The notes beneath the pieces are model-generated. The model was not told where the DNA came from. It made no database searches and saw nothing but the letters and a program-made list of their open reading frames with translations. Made by a program: the position numbers and the translations under genes. Source: Dethiosulfovibrio sp. (lineage in GTDB: Bacteria; Synergistota; Synergistia; Synergistales; Dethiosulfovibrionaceae). From it: a stretch of 11,552 nucleotides of DNA. The DNA is taken from assembly GCA_028709985.1 (NCBI GenBank), contig JAQUTB010000028.1, forward strand, positions 1-11,552, given 5' to 3'. Positions 6,865 through 11,515 of the stretch are shown in pieces (the stretch's first letter is position 1; each line of letters opens with the position of its first letter).

Positions 6865-7986
6865 CTACAGGACCACCAGGTTATCCCTGTGGACCACCTC
6901 GTCGAAATCCCTCTCTCCCAGAAGCGACTCTATCTCATCGGTCTGTCTTCCGAGTATGGCCAGGACGTCGGGGCTGTCGTAGTTGACCAGTCCCCTGGCG
7001 ACCTCCTCGCCGTGTATCCCCTGGATCGACACAATCTGCCCTCTGGAGAAATCCCCTCTGACCGCTATAACGCCGGAGGGGAGAAGGCTTCCCCCCCTGT
7101 CCTTCAGGGCCAGAACCGCTCCGTCGTCTATAACCAAAACCCCCTGGGGCCTGGCCCCGGAGGCTATCCACCTTTTTCTGCCGTGCCGACCCTCCTGGGC
7201 CGGGAGGAAAAGGGTCCCAAGATGCTCTCCCTCCACCACTCGTCTGACGACCCTGTCCTCCCCTCCGCTTGCTATCACCATGGGAATGCCAGCGGGAAGG
7301 GCTATATCCGCAGCGGCCAATTTTGTGTACATCCCACCGCTGGCGAAGCTGGACCCCCTTCCGGTGGAGTTCTGTCTTATGGAGTCCGATATGTGCTCCA
7401 CCACCGGAAGCAGCACAGCATCGGGGTTCTCCTTGGGGTTTTTGTCGTAAAGGCCGTCTATGTCGGACAATATTATAAGCAGGTCCGCCTGGACCGCCAC
7501 CGCCACCAGGGCCGATAGGGTATCGTTGTCGCCGAACTTTATCTCCTCCACCGCCACGGTGTCGTTTTCGTTGATTATAGGGACCACCCCGAGCTCCAGT
7601 AGACCGCATAGGGTGTTTCTTATGTTCAGATACCTTGGCCTGTCATCGAAGGCGTCCCTGGTGAGCAACACCTGCCCCACGGTCTGGCCGTACTCCCCGA
7701 AGAACTTTTCGTACATCTGCATCAGCGAGGCCTGCCCCACAGCAGCAAGGGCCTGTTTCAGCGGAAGGGTAGAAGGTCGCTCTCTCAGCCCCATTCGCCC
7801 GACGCCAGCTCCGACCGCACCGGAAGTTATGAGTATGACGTCCTTACCCTGGTTATGCAGGTCCGACAGAGCTCTGGCCAACCTCTCCATGCGCAATAAA
7901 TTAAGTTTACCTGTGTCGTGAGTTATGGTGCTTGTACCAACCTTGACCACTATCCTACGACAGTTTTTCAGATCCGACCTATCCAT
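6865..7986 (-). CDS. proB: Glutamate 5-kinase with PUA domain
   Basis: ProB phosphorylates glutamate to gamma-glutamyl phosphate, the committed and usually proline-inhibited step of proline synthesis. At 373 residues it has the length of two-domain enzymes. ATG 7986 has GGGGTGAG five bases upstream. The amino-acid kinase domain (about 10-260) shows IVVKVGTSTI, ITSGAVGAG (53-61), VGQVLLTR, IINENDTV (137-144), FGDNDTLSALVA (151-162), LSDIDGLYDKNP (173-184) and SGGMYTKLAAA (216-226). The C-terminal PUA domain (about 277-360) includes ARPQGVLVIDDGA and GVIAVRGDFSRGQIV; it is typical of bacterial ProB. It is the first gene of the operon with proA and ddl, and lies just downstream of a 260-bp structured element. 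Confidence 0.96.
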   Translation of the reverse strand: MDRSDLKNCRRIVVKVGTSTITHDTGKLNLLRMERLARALSDLHNQGKDVILITSGAVGAGVGRMGLRERPSTLPLKQALAAVGQASLMQMYEKFFGEYGQTVGQVLLTRDAFDDRPRYLNIRNTLCGLLELGVVPIINENDTVAVEEIKFGDNDTLSALVAVAVQADLLIILSDIDGLYDKNPKENPDAVLLPVVEHISDSIRQNSTGRGSSFASGGMYTKLAAADIALPAGIPMVIASGGEDRVVRRVVEGEHLGTLFLPAQEGRHGRKRWIASGARPQGVLVIDDGAVLALKDRGGSLLPSGVIAVRGDFSRGQIVSIQGIHGEEVARGLVNYDSPDVLAILGRQTDEIESLLGERDFDEVVHRDNLVVL

Positions 7987-8129
7987 GATAACTCACCCCG
8001 ATACGGTTGTAGTAGCTTAGGAGCATCTCTAAAAGATCACGTTAGAGTCTCCTCGGAGAGACCGTCCCGCCAGTGCCCTGTCTCGCCCAGGCGTATTTTC
8101 GGCCTGCCTGTTCCGTACGAACCGCCTCG

Positions 8130-8150
8130 GAGGGCACGTCCTGTGCCCCC
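8130..8150 (-). promoter_or_regulatory. Apical hairpin A with CsrA-like loop CAGGACG
   Basis: On the minus strand GGGGGCAC and GTGCCCTC form an 8-bp stem (one G-U pair) around loop AGGAC, so loop plus closing pair read CAGGACG. E. coli CsrB repeats are CAGGA(U/A/C)G in hairpin loops, bound by CsrA. The match is seen in the sequence; binding is inference. Confidence 0.45.
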
Positions 8151-8157
8151 TCGGCTT

Positions 8158-8178
8158 GGGGCGACGTCCTGTCGCCCC
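8158..8178 (-). promoter_or_regulatory. Apical hairpin B with CsrA-like loop CAGGACG
   Basis: GGGGCGAC and GTCGCCCC form a perfect 8-bp stem around the same loop AGGAC as hairpin A. The stems differ in sequence by paired changes while ACAGGACGT is kept, the pattern expected when loop sequence and pairing are both selected. Confidence 0.45.
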
Positions 8179-8280
8179 ATTCGTACTACACGACGGCATG
8201 CCGAAAATACGGGCTCAAACGGGCTCTGTCGGAACGATCTCTCCGAGGATCGGCGCTTTTAGAGATACCCTTAAGGGGAT

Positions 8281-8286
8281 ATTATA
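8281..8286 (-). promoter_or_regulatory. TATAAT -10 element at the outer edge of the inverted repeat
   Basis: On the minus strand a perfect TATAAT lies between the stop of the AsmA/TamB-like gene (8291) and the repeat. A start site would fall near 8275, the first base of the repeat, giving proB a leader of about 290 nt. No convincing -35 is present at 16-18 bp, so the call is tentative. Confidence 0.35.
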
Positions 8287-8290
8287 CAGC

Positions 8291-11200
8291 TCAGTTTCCC
8301 CCTCCGAGGATATTTTGGAGGACCTTTCCTGCCTCCTGCTCCAAAGCGTCTTTAAGCTGATCCTCCAGATTTTTGGGCTCCTCCTGAGGGACAGGCTGAG
8401 AGGGGACCGATGACGGAGGCGTAATCGACGCGGCAGGGGCCTCTTGAGCTGGAGCTGGCTCTATCTTGGACGGCCCAACCTTAAGCCCCTTGACGGAGGA
8501 GGAATCCAACGTCCCCACGACCTGGAAAGAGATATCCCTGAAATCATCCTTGGATATGCCCTGCTGAGCACCTCCAAGGGCTCCACCGATAATCGCAGCG
8601 ATGGTCCCTGCTCCTCCGCCTAGTACGCCACCGACCCCTGCTCCCACCACGGCGTTAAGAAGCCTCATATTGACCTCCCCAGCACAGTCCAGGGCCAATT
8701 TCCTGTTGGGGCCTATAACCCCGGAGGACACGAAGGACCTGTAAATTGGGTCTCCGTCGTGGGCCTGAACCGAGGCCTTATCCAGGGTAAACACGTCGTT
8801 CACCAGATGGAACGTCCCGTTGGCGGAACGATAGCGGATGCCGTCGGTCCCGTGAAGCGACGCTGCCACCTGGGCCAGGGGGAATCCCACCACCTGACCT
8901 CCACCGAGCTCGGCTGTGCCGTTGCCCTTGAAGCTGAAGGGGGACAGGACCCCTGAGCCCTCGAACTGGGCCTTGCCTATGCCGGTCACTGTCCCATCGG
9001 TCCCGGCGAAAGCCCTTATGAGAGGGGCCACGTCGGTTCCCGAGACGGATACCTTCTTGGAAAACTTCAGGCTGTCCAGGTCAACCCAACCGGAGCCGGT
9101 CACTGAACCACCGTACAGCTCTGCCGACGCCGAAGACACCGTCAGTCTGTTTCCCTTTATCTCGATGGGATAGCTGACGTTGTTGAGCGATATATTCATC
9201 ACAGAGAGGACCGGGGCCTTTATCGACCCTGATCCGGTCATAGCCTTGCCGTCCAAGGCTCCCTTGAACGACACCGAGACCTTGCCACCGATGCCGTAGG
9301 ACTGGGCCTCAGGCAGGCCCTGAGAGGCCTTGGTGAGGTCAAGGTCGGTCCCGGACAGGCTAAACTCGCCCTTGGAGGACGCCCCGTCGAACGAACCGCT
9401 CACGGTGAAGGGGCTTCCTCCAACCGATGCCTTCCCCTCCTTCAGGGTAAAGGCCTTCCCCTTGCCCTCAACGGAGGCAGCCAGACCGTCTATCCCAACT
9501 CCCCAGGCAACCCCTTTGGGCAGGGACAGGTTCAGGGTCAGGTTCGGCTCCGCCACGGAGCCCTTGGCGGTCAAAACAGCGGAAAGAGCCCCGGACAGGG
9601 GCAGATCCACCAGCTTGGCGATACCTATACCGTCGCCCTTGACGGACAGATCCACAACTGGAGACTCGCCAAGTCCCAGCGAGCCCGACGCAGCAAGGCT
9701 ACCGCCTGCCACCGACGCTGAGCCCAAAAGGGCCATAGAGGCGGCCTTTCCCTTGAGCTGAAGGTCCACCTTCTCCAAAGAGATCTGAGACATGGCAACC
9801 TTGGACGATTTTATACCCAGCTGCATCGACGGATCGGACAGGTCGCCGTCCAGGGAGAAATCGGCATCCGTCCGGCCGACCAGACCAGGAGCGAGGTCGG
9901 ATAGGGCCGAAAGGTCCAATCCCTTCATCTCTCCCTTAAAGGAACCAGAGGGAGCCTTGCCGCCCATCGAGAGCTTGCCGGAAACAGCGAGAGGGGCCCC
10001 TCTCCAGCTCGCATGAGCGGAGGGAATATCCAGATCGGTCCCTCTGAGAACGAACTTAACTGTCGGATCGTTCAGGACTTGCTCAAACCCCGAAAGGGAC
10101 GGCGCGCTGACCGTTCCGGTTATTGAAGGCTCGGCCAGATTTCCCTTTATGGACAGGTCCATGTCGATTAGGCCTGACACGGGGAGAGGACCGCTGAGCA
10201 TGGAGGCGATGAGGTCCGTTGGGACCTTTCTGACCTTGAAAAGCAGTTTAGCTTCGGGGGCTCCCTTTCCGAAGGATATGCCTCCCTCCAGATAGGCTGG
10301 CTGCCCCTGAAACACCGTCTTAGCCGAGACAGATGCCTTGCCGTCCGGGGTCAGAGCCACAGAGGCCCAGCTCTGAGAGAGGCCGTATCCCATGACCTTA
10401 AGGGACTCCGCCCTGGCCTTCACCGTGCCCTTCAGCTTATCCACAGGTCCCTCCAGGGCCACGGACAGCGACTGGACGACACCGGACAGTTCCTTGGGGA
10501 TCTGCGGATAGGACGCCCTGAGCCTGTCCAGATCGGCGTCGGAGGCATCCATCTTCAGATCTATTATGGGCCGCTCTTCGCCAAACCGAGAGGACAGGGC
10601 CCCGGCCAAGGGAACCCCAGCCACGACAGCCTTCAGGTCCGGCAGATCCAGGGCCATATCCTGATAGGCAAAATTTCCGGCAAGACCGCTAACAGGTATC
10701 GCGGCAAGAACCCCGTCGAAGCCGACAGAGCCGTTCACCACAGGGGATTCCAAAGTGCCTCCCACATCGAAGGCCATCGACACCTTCCCGGAGAAGGACG
10801 CACCGGCAAGATCCGGCCACAGACCAGCCAACTCAGCTAGGTTAAGATCCCGGACCTCCCCCTTGGCGGCCAGGTCCGGGAACACGTCCCCCTGGGCCTT
10901 GACCTTGCCCGATCCCACGGACATGTCGAGATCTCTCAAGGTCAGGAAAGATCCCCCATAAAGCCCGGAAACGGCCCCCTTGGCGGGAACCCCGCCATAG
11001 GCCACGTCCAGGCCGAGATCGAAGGCCAGGCCTCGGTCATCCTTGAACCTGGCGGAGATATCCTTTATCTCCAGAATCCCGCCTGGCAGCCCCAGGGAGG
11101 ATTTTACCACCGACACAGACCCGACCGGAACAGAAGGCGGCCCAGAGGCATCCGACTTGGGCAACCCATTGACCAGAGCCGTCAACTGGTCCAGATCGGT

Positions 11201-11515
11201 CGATATCCCGGACAGGATAACCCTGTCCACCACGGCTCCGCCTCTCAGGAGGGCCAACAGGTTGGGCTTAACCTCCAAAGAGGGCAGATCCAGAGAGTAT
11301 TCCCCGTCTTTGACCAGCGAGAGCTCCTTGAGGGCATATCCCTTAAGGGGATTTCCCGATATCTCCCCCAACGAGACCTTAGCCTGAAGGGTCTGGGTGA
11401 GGGCCTTAATCGCCTGGTCCCGAACCACCCCTGTCCCCAGATCGGTCACAGAAAGGGCGACTCCCACCACAGCGACGAAAGCCAGCGACAGGACCGCTAT
11501 TTTCCTTTTGCTCAA
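8291..11515 (-). CDS. AsmA/TamB-like inner-membrane-anchored envelope protein
   Basis: This 1074-residue protein starts at TTG 11515, six bases after GGGAGGG. Residues 5-23 are an uncleaved-looking membrane anchor after the basic MSKRKI. The rest is periplasmic: long runs of short beta strands of the type G-x-V-x-G-S/T, with recurring units such as GTLESPVVNGSVGFDG, GNLAEPSITGTVSAPSLSG and GSVAEPNLTLNLSLP. That is the pattern of AsmA/TamB (DUF490) proteins, thought to form hydrophobic grooves moving lipids between membranes or to aid outer-membrane assembly. Near the C-terminus come a Gly/Ala-rich stretch (952-986, VGAGVGGVLGGGAG), a Pro-rich linker (about 1018-1048) and a final amphipathic helix (NLEDQLKDALEQEAGKVLQ). 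E. coli TamB is about 1260 residues, so this one is somewhat shorter. I cannot decide between TamB proper and another AsmA-like group. Confidence 0.85.
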   Translation of the reverse strand: MSKRKIAVLSLAFVAVVGVALSVTDLGTGVVRDQAIKALTQTLQAKVSLGEISGNPLKGYALKELSLVKDGEYSLDLPSLEVKPNLLALLRGGAVVDRVILSGISTDLDQLTALVNGLPKSDASGPPSVPVGSVSVVKSSLGLPGGILEIKDISARFKDDRGLAFDLGLDVAYGGVPAKGAVSGLYGGSFLTLRDLDMSVGSGKVKAQGDVFPDLAAKGEVRDLNLAELAGLWPDLAGASFSGKVSMAFDVGGTLESPVVNGSVGFDGVLAAIPVSGLAGNFAYQDMALDLPDLKAVVAGVPLAGALSSRFGEERPIIDLKMDASDADLDRLRASYPQIPKELSGVVQSLSVALEGPVDKLKGTVKARAESLKVMGYGLSQSWASVALTPDGKASVSAKTVFQGQPAYLEGGISFGKGAPEAKLLFKVRKVPTDLIASMLSGPLPVSGLIDMDLSIKGNLAEPSITGTVSAPSLSGFEQVLNDPTVKFVLRGTDLDIPSAHASWRGAPLAVSGKLSMGGKAPSGSFKGEMKGLDLSALSDLAPGLVGRTDADFSLDGDLSDPSMQLGIKSSKVAMSQISLEKVDLQLKGKAASMALLGSASVAGGSLAASGSLGLGESPVVDLSVKGDGIGIAKLVDLPLSGALSAVLTAKGSVAEPNLTLNLSLPKGVAWGVGIDGLAASVEGKGKAFTLKEGKASVGGSPFTVSGSFDGASSKGEFSLSGTDLDLTKASQGLPEAQSYGIGGKVSVSFKGALDGKAMTGSGSIKAPVLSVMNISLNNVSYPIEIKGNRLTVSSASAELYGGSVTGSGWVDLDSLKFSKKVSVSGTDVAPLIRAFAGTDGTVTGIGKAQFEGSGVLSPFSFKGNGTAELGGGQVVGFPLAQVAASLHGTDGIRYRSANGTFHLVNDVFTLDKASVQAHDGDPIYRSFVSSGVIGPNRKLALDCAGEVNMRLLNAVVGAGVGGVLGGGAGTIAAIIGGALGGAQQGISKDDFRDISFQVVGTLDSSSVKGLKVGPSKIEPAPAQEAPAASITPPSSVPSQPVPQEEPKNLEDQLKDALEQEAGKVLQNILGGGN

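Follow-up and report, generated by a model that had tools for sequence, protein, structure and literature searches.

The nested inverted repeat beside proB in the window, an 11,552-nucleotide stretch of a Dethiosulfovibrio sp. contig, is almost certainly, judged from sequence comparison, a copy of a non-autonomous mobile element (MITE). With a rough probability of 0.6, we read the element as carrying a CsrA-type structured RNA of the TwoAYGGAY family (RF01731) and as being moved in trans by an IS5-family transposase.

The element in the window

Inverted blocks were present at 8016-8035/8256-8275 (20 nt, 85%), 8050-8078/8221-8249 (29 nt, 86%) and 8092-8108/8195-8211 (17 nt, 94%), all three pairs surrounding two hairpins. 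The minus strand folded to -157.5 kcal/mol whereas its shuffles averaged -98.1 (z -11.95), and the plus strand gave a z of -8.98; none of the 200 shuffles was as low in either case. The nested inverted repeat that the first-pass annotation had described near proB is therefore real, with these blocks and a minus-strand z of about -12. The scan of 7950-8420 called no terminator-like site.

The alignment of the copies placed the element proper at 8020-8270, the outermost four bases on each side of the repeat being a degenerate target duplication. Its ends, GGGnATCTCTAAAAA ... TTTTTAGAGATnCCC in the alignment of 40 copies with their flanks, correspond to minus-strand positions 8270 to 8020 of the window. 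The features are as follows.

8020..8270, minus (putative RNA strand): MITE copy, 251 bp (alignments of 40 own-genome copies and, across seven genomes, of 99 full ones)
8256..8270, minus: terminal inverted repeat (TIR), RNA 5' end, GGGTATCTCTAAAAG (family GGGnATCTCTAAAAA) (copy alignments)
8020..8034, plus: terminal inverted repeat, RNA 3' end (inverted blocks, copy alignments)
8016..8019, no strand: 4-bp target duplication, degenerate, CTTA (duplications general in the MITE family)
8271..8274, no strand: second target-duplication copy, degenerate, TTAA (duplications general in the MITE family)
8089..8218, minus: RF01731 TwoAYGGAY match, 54.2 bits, gathering score 43 (Rfam)
8221..8249, minus: outer stem 5' arm, partner 8050-8078 (inverted blocks, fold, covariation)
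8050..8078, minus: outer stem 3' arm (inverted blocks, fold, covariation)
8195..8211, minus: middle stem 5' arm, partner 8092-8108 (inverted blocks; copies show changes on both sides of the pairs)
8092..8108, minus: middle stem 3' arm (inverted blocks, covariation)
8158..8178, minus: hairpin 1, GGGGCGAC-AGGAC-GUCGCCCC, loop 8166-8170 (loop AGGA constant in 93/93 copies)
8130..8150, minus: hairpin 2, GGGGGCAC-AGGAC-GUGCCCUC, loop 8138-8142 (loop AGGA constant in 93/93 copies)
6865..7986, minus: proB-like gene, 33 nt downstream (ORF; conserved in relatives); the name follows the first-pass annotation
8291..11515, minus: AsmA/TamB-like gene, upstream (ORF; matches PF04357 weakly, at 23.8 bits for a cut-off of 22.4)

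Elsewhere in the window, positions 1152-1913 of the minus strand hold a 253-aa ORF with no Pfam match at E 0.001.

A dispersed family in the genus

Seven genomes of the window's genus (g1) were analysed, designated G000 to G006, G000 being the window's own, a 66% complete draft of 2.04 Mb in 358 contigs. In G000, at least 52 matches to the whole stretch were resolved into 40 copies, the others being 72-93% identical to that of the window; this is the sole set that came from a whole-stretch search, in which 40 of 74 first-look candidates were scored. As eight of these copies lie at contig ends, the true copy number of G000 is probably higher. Copies of the core pattern (41 nt, at most three mismatches) numbered 26 in G000, 17 in G001, 9 in G002, 103 in G003, 44 in G004 and 13 in G005. 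A DNA search found the element in 7 of 61 genomes, the seven being all those of g1, and in none of the 54 genomes outside the genus, seven of which belong to the same family. The TIR pattern occurred 17 to 109 times per genome in six congeners, and reversed-pattern controls at most twice in any.

Copies were collected by core pattern (at most three mismatches) from G001 (17/17), G002 (9/9) and G005 (11/13); 20 of the 103 counted in G003 were fetched, every one a perfect core match, and 33 of the 44 in G004, 31 through the RF01731 list and two through the DNA list. Both TIRs were present in 110 of the 145 located copies, and the 99 that also measured 240-262 bp and were distinct were retained as full copies. 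The 4-bp flanks of these copies, from all seven genomes, were identical in 43 of 100 pairs (one copy was entered twice), compared to 4.9% when flanks were mispaired between copies. No 5-base flank match was found in the 110 copies. The family thus has the properties of a MITE: short, without a transposase, bounded by TIRs, with a fixed 4-bp duplication, multicopy, and with sites that are empty in relatives. The first-pass annotation had offered a mobile element as one of its options, and the copies at unrelated loci, the TIRs, the 4-bp duplications and an insertion sequence (IS) with a matching end bear it out; the count of genomic copies that it had proposed as a check gave dozens at unrelated sites, which supports a MITE. 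Other bacterial MITEs include QMITE1 and QMITE2 of Coxiella and the Correia elements.

Some derivatives are shorter (80-196 bp) and retain the TIRs but not the double hairpin on that strand (L180, L060, L062, L063, L082, L104, L113, L116). L180, located upstream of proB in G003 (G003:C4), appears to have lost its core in place. In a subfamily (L022, L023, L025, L027, L028), the outer arms appear swapped relative to the core, which suggests an inversion of the core in place. A phage origin was considered and rejected, with an exact 24-base core pattern found at no place in viral_contigs. An exact 42-base core pattern was also found nowhere in genome_contigs, a collection that may omit near records, so that this result is uninformative about the genus.

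A probable IS5-family partner

G001 contains an IS of 1298 bp with left end GGGCATCTCTAAAAA and right end TTGCTAGAGGTGCCC. Its 348-aa transposase matched PF01609 (3.5e-27) and NF033581 (IS5 family; 281 bits, cut-off 140), and 4-bp duplications were present in all five copies read, of seven intact. The IS and the MITE share the left TIR and the duplication length. They differ in that the MITE is without a transposase and, apart from the ends, the window copy has nothing in common with the IS beyond 8-base words. Full-length transposases were identified in two of the seven g1 genomes, seven in G001 and one in G003 (96%), and none in G000 (a draft), G002, G004 or G005; G006 contains fragments only, and fragments are also present in G001. 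On the evidence of the shared end and duplication length, the IS5-family transposase is the likely mobiliser of the MITE in trans.

The only relative of this transposase in genome_contigs, where near records may be omitted, was in a Sedimentisphaerales MAG (L307, 61% identical), and may reflect transfer between phyla.

RNA structure and strand

The minus strand of the window copy scored 54.2 bits against Rfam RF01731, above the gathering score of 43, and the model was above its cut-off in six of the seven g1 genomes. As in TwoAYGGAY RNAs, two adjacent GGA hairpins lie on a long stem on the same strand. The g1 copies differ in being the cargo of a multicopy MITE and in their loops: the two hairpins in the window have AGGAC loops, one base short of AYGGAY. 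The taxa named for TwoAYGGAY in a table of the 2010 paper are human gut, gammaproteobacteria and Clostridiales (PMC2864571). In G018 and G035 the match was partial, covering only model positions 45-113; these matches look like GC-rich palindromes and are probably due to chance.

Covariation was analysed in 30 of the 99 full copies, chosen for their spread and including six of the diverged G006. Standard pairs made up 90.5% of cells in the window structure compared to 38-48% when the structure was slid, a control that favours a structure derived from one of the aligned sequences. Two-sided changes were observed in 33 of 97 pairs against a shuffle mean of 17.8, with 0 of 500 shuffles as high, and related rows can exceed shuffles even without structure. 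The arm stems covary, with changes on both sides. Of the stand-alone small RNA that the first-pass annotation had entertained, the structured RNA is supported by both the Rfam match and the covariation, and the discrete transcript is a prediction.

RNAalifold on 93 copies gave -109 for the minus (RNA) strand and -72 for the other. In the same 93 copies, G-U occupied 198 cells versus 52 for A-C. Distinct variants seen in at least two copies were 21 GU versus 9 AC (p 0.02), and those in at least two genomes 18 versus 9, which is marginal (p 0.06); variants in a single copy showed no strand bias (GU 25, AC 22). This pattern would be expected if old variants had been sifted and young ones had not. 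Several lines thus agree on the minus strand as the putative RNA strand.

RF01731 had no match in G006, and the loops of this genome are decayed or rearranged; four of its six full copies keep CACAGGA in hairpin 2 and two have hairpin 1 reversed. In these two (L080, L265), the reversed hairpin 1 (GACATCCTGTC) has its GGA on the other strand, in a genome with transposase fragments only.

A second MITE family with a double hairpin

RF01731 was also multicopy in genus g26, of a different family in the same order, with 9, 6 and 13 matches at E <= 0.001 in three genomes, 9 of these 28 being above the gathering score. Of 20 stretches fetched from two genomes, 16 hold a full 164-bp element with ends CCTAAATCCGCAGG; the analysis excluded the four without both ends and another two partial loci. 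Identical 5-bp flanks were present in 12 of the 16, compared to 1 of 240 mispaired. All 16 elements have both GGA loops, which are canonical ANGGAN/ANGGAY; in hairpin 1 the N takes all four bases, and X takes two over the pair. BLAST of this element against the first MITE returned nothing better than E 0.65. That two unrelated MITEs share one RNA design is the best reason to regard the RNA as the part being preserved.

Extra element ends were seen near or beside full copies in g26 (L325, L327, L328, L331, L333), as if the element inserted adjacently. In a third lineage (G174), a single RF01731 match of 64.9 bits has both loops reading as ANGGAU. Across the phylum, RF01731 was found in at least 11 of 185 genomes, a lower bound, with at most 14 candidates scored per genome and nothing from G000.

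Conservation of the core

In the 20 G000 copies with both ends, which were retrieved irrespective of the core, the core (positions 91-150) was 0.75% off consensus, the arms 9.5-10% and the ends 17-19%. A looser set of 28 of the 40 copies gave 1.7% for the core, 10-13.5% for the arms and 24% for the ends, the core and arm figures being inflated as some ends are replaced by flanking DNA; core-lost copies belong to neither set. Between species, 15 same-site pairs gave differences of 1.4% for the core, 8.2% for the arms and 9.9% for the flanks, with core conservation biased upward in same-site pairs without G000, as in the pooled set. Five deep same-site pairs gave 0-5% for the core, 15-25% for the arms and 16-25% for the flanks individually, and 9/309, 182/923 and 612/2887 when summed by hand (two pairs share one G004 copy, and retrieval was partly core-based).

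Within the core of 93 full-length copies from six genomes, the AGGA of both loops was constant over 744 cells. Changes were present in 6 of 186 cells at the last loop base, five in hairpin 1 and one in hairpin 2, and in 25 of 2976 in the hairpin stems, four of which look like a one-base deletion. At the stem rate, the chance of no AGGA change is 0.002 to 0.005. The loops of the 93 g1 copies follow the A(N)GGAX rule, with A and GGA constant and X varying; exceptions occur in copies without both ends (L016, L029), and in G003. The 60-nt core diverges several-fold less than arms or flanks, including at shared sites, and is very probably selected at the RNA level.

The element could instead be a plain MITE, in which the hairpins are mere transposon structure and the core is alike through youth or recombinational homogenisation. 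The TIRs, the duplications and the IS partner are what such an element would have, and the absence of an orientation bias and the evenness of the single-copy variants (GU 25, AC 22) also speak for it. However, the deep same-site pairs keep their core despite diverged arms and flanks, even if their retrieval was partly core-based; homogenisation should extend to the arms, the arms covary, and an unrelated MITE obeys the same loop rule. We regard this explanation as unlikely.

Slightly less likely again is a core that benefits the element itself (transposition, targeting or copy survival), either through some other protein bound to it or by working as DNA. Conservation that is independent of gene orientation would suit this explanation. 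On the other side, core-less derivatives also have 4-bp duplications, with identical flanks at all four bases in 6 of 10, although some may be in-place deletions, and the strand asymmetry of the shared variants and the same-strand GGA loops favour RNA.

CsrA as a candidate ligand

CsrA was above its cut-off in all seven g1 genomes and in none of the seven genomes of the family's two other genera, one of which has a sub-cut-off match. All 12 genomes with an RF01731 match, including the probable chance matches in G018 and G035, have CsrA above cut-off. The three g26 genomes with RF01731 have CsrA, and G068 and G069 are without CsrA and RF01731, in a search that misses some matches. By genus, CsrA was present in 4 of 4 with RF01731 versus 36 of 62 with any CsrA match. 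Since CsrA is widespread in the phylum, being above cut-off in 114 of 185 genomes, this co-occurrence is weak evidence.

In G000, csrA follows an ORF taken for fliW by its look and position. The leaders of csrA-linked flagellin genes contain a C-ANGGAN-G hairpin in all six genomes read (G000, G001, G003, G004, G005, G006); the corresponding gene of G002 is interrupted by a contig end and was left out. These hairpins have at least four pairs and lie 34-48 nt before the start, and the leaders have AAGGAGG at the ribosome site, an arrangement known from B. subtilis. The background was 20 such hairpins in 767,988 nt fetched, or 0.004 expected per leader. CsrA of the genus therefore probably reads ANGGAX. 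Among flagellin-like genes not linked to csrA, such a hairpin was present in two of the seven read (L292 in G001, L294 in G002) and missing in five. In these two it reads C-AGGGAA-G, and a possible start follows at about 28 nt.

The loops of the element omit the N of ANGGAX, although the same genomes have hexaloops in their flagellin leaders. In PMC4005645, omission of the N is among the changes that lower RsmE binding 10- to 1000-fold, and stem loops SL3 and SL4 of RsmZ, in which a five-base A-GGA-X loop is closed by C-G as in the element, also have no N and bind more weakly. The element resembles CsrB/RsmZ-type sRNAs in its GGA stem loops and paired sites, and is unlike them in having two sites per copy rather than many and in being dispersed and mobile, with transcription and binding predicted. 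TwoAYGGAY was proposed earlier as a CsrA binder (PMC4333381), in passages that make no mention of mobility. We found no description of TwoAYGGAY or CsrA sites on MITEs in the open-access literature, among the matches listed. CsrA is the probable ligand of the RNA core. Counting against the reading as a transposon-borne CsrA-type RNA are the absence of an orientation bias, the absence of a called promoter on the RNA strand of the window copy, the lower-affinity type of loop and the persistence of core-deleted derivatives, including at the proB site of G003. Intact transposases in just two of the seven g1 genomes, the decayed or rearranged loops of G006 and the lack of strand bias among single-copy variants also weigh against it.

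Gene context and proposed mechanism

The copies are intergenic, with medians of 37 and 32.5 nt to the nearest ORFs. Of 90 copies, 28 lie between convergent genes, 24 are tandem sense, 15 tandem antisense and 23 divergent; four further copies are more than 500 nt from any ORF (ORFs of at least 80 aa from a simple caller). There was no orientation bias relative to neighbours, the upstream gene being on the same strand in 52 of 90 and the tandem cases being 24 versus 15 (p 0.2), and core conservation did not differ by gene orientation. Selection through local transcription was therefore not seen. What is selected may be the element and not the host genes, which would fit the absent orientation effect on the core.

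The intergenic position, with convergent genes as the commonest single context, the very stable hairpin and the T-run in the family TIR would also suit a 3'-end or RNA-stability element like REP/BIME, whose long hairpin would block exonucleases, be cut by RNase III or terminate weakly, with the loops incidental. This is improbable, as the long stems on which such a function would depend are less conserved than the loop-bearing core, and no terminator was called.

For the CsrA-type RNA that we prefer, the IS5-family transposase would move the MITE in trans, and the RNA would be made by read-through from host promoters, the upstream gene supplying about half of the copies (52/90). The AGGA loops would bind CsrA, and many weak paired sites could together titrate it as a dispersed decoy; alternatively, single copies might bring CsrA to a transcript, as portable CsrA sites in host UTRs. 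A decoy rather than a local effect is somewhat less likely than not. It is slightly more doubtful still that TwoAYGGAY, at least in this phylum, consists of transposon-borne CsrA decoys, with the paired hairpins acquired independently by unrelated MITEs.

Among known MITEs, the QMITEs yield sRNAs (PMC5896051), while promoters and RNase III sites occur on Correia elements (PMC10969869). The passages on them describe no protein-binding RNA core like that of the g1 element, and the word CsrA is absent from both main texts. An RNA family without known function travels here on MITEs in two genera, with two end types and a CsrA-site loop rule, and TwoAYGGAY would be offered a concrete, testable function. 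Transposition would in this case spread the sites of a global post-transcriptional regulator, changing both their dosage and their placement; if true, MITE copy number would set CsrA titration, and the regulon could be rewired by transposition. With up to 103 copies in one genome, the effect should be measurable.

The proB site

The tamB-proB order is kept in all seven g1 genomes. At this site, the element is full-length in G000 and G004, core-deleted with only the arms left in G003, and absent in G001, G002, G005 and G006 (4/7). The insertion appears to be the same in G003 and G004, with TAAA flanks on both sides by eye. The first-pass annotation had suggested a cis-acting leader controlling proB-proA-ddl, for which conservation upstream of proB in close relatives would be expected. 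The distance of 33 nt to proB, the RNA-sense orientation and the full-length copy in G004 speak for it; with the element full-length in only two of seven genomes, missing or core-deleted in the others, and with other members of the family, in every orientation, at dozens of unrelated loci, a general leader role was rejected, and this explanation is very improbable. A local effect at proB is possible.

For the window copy, no minus-strand promoter was called by the scan of 7950-8420. A TATAAT box is present at 8281-8286 on the minus strand, directly before the RNA 5' end of the element, with no good -35 seen, and a similar sequence, TGTATAAT, precedes proB in G001, G002 and G005.
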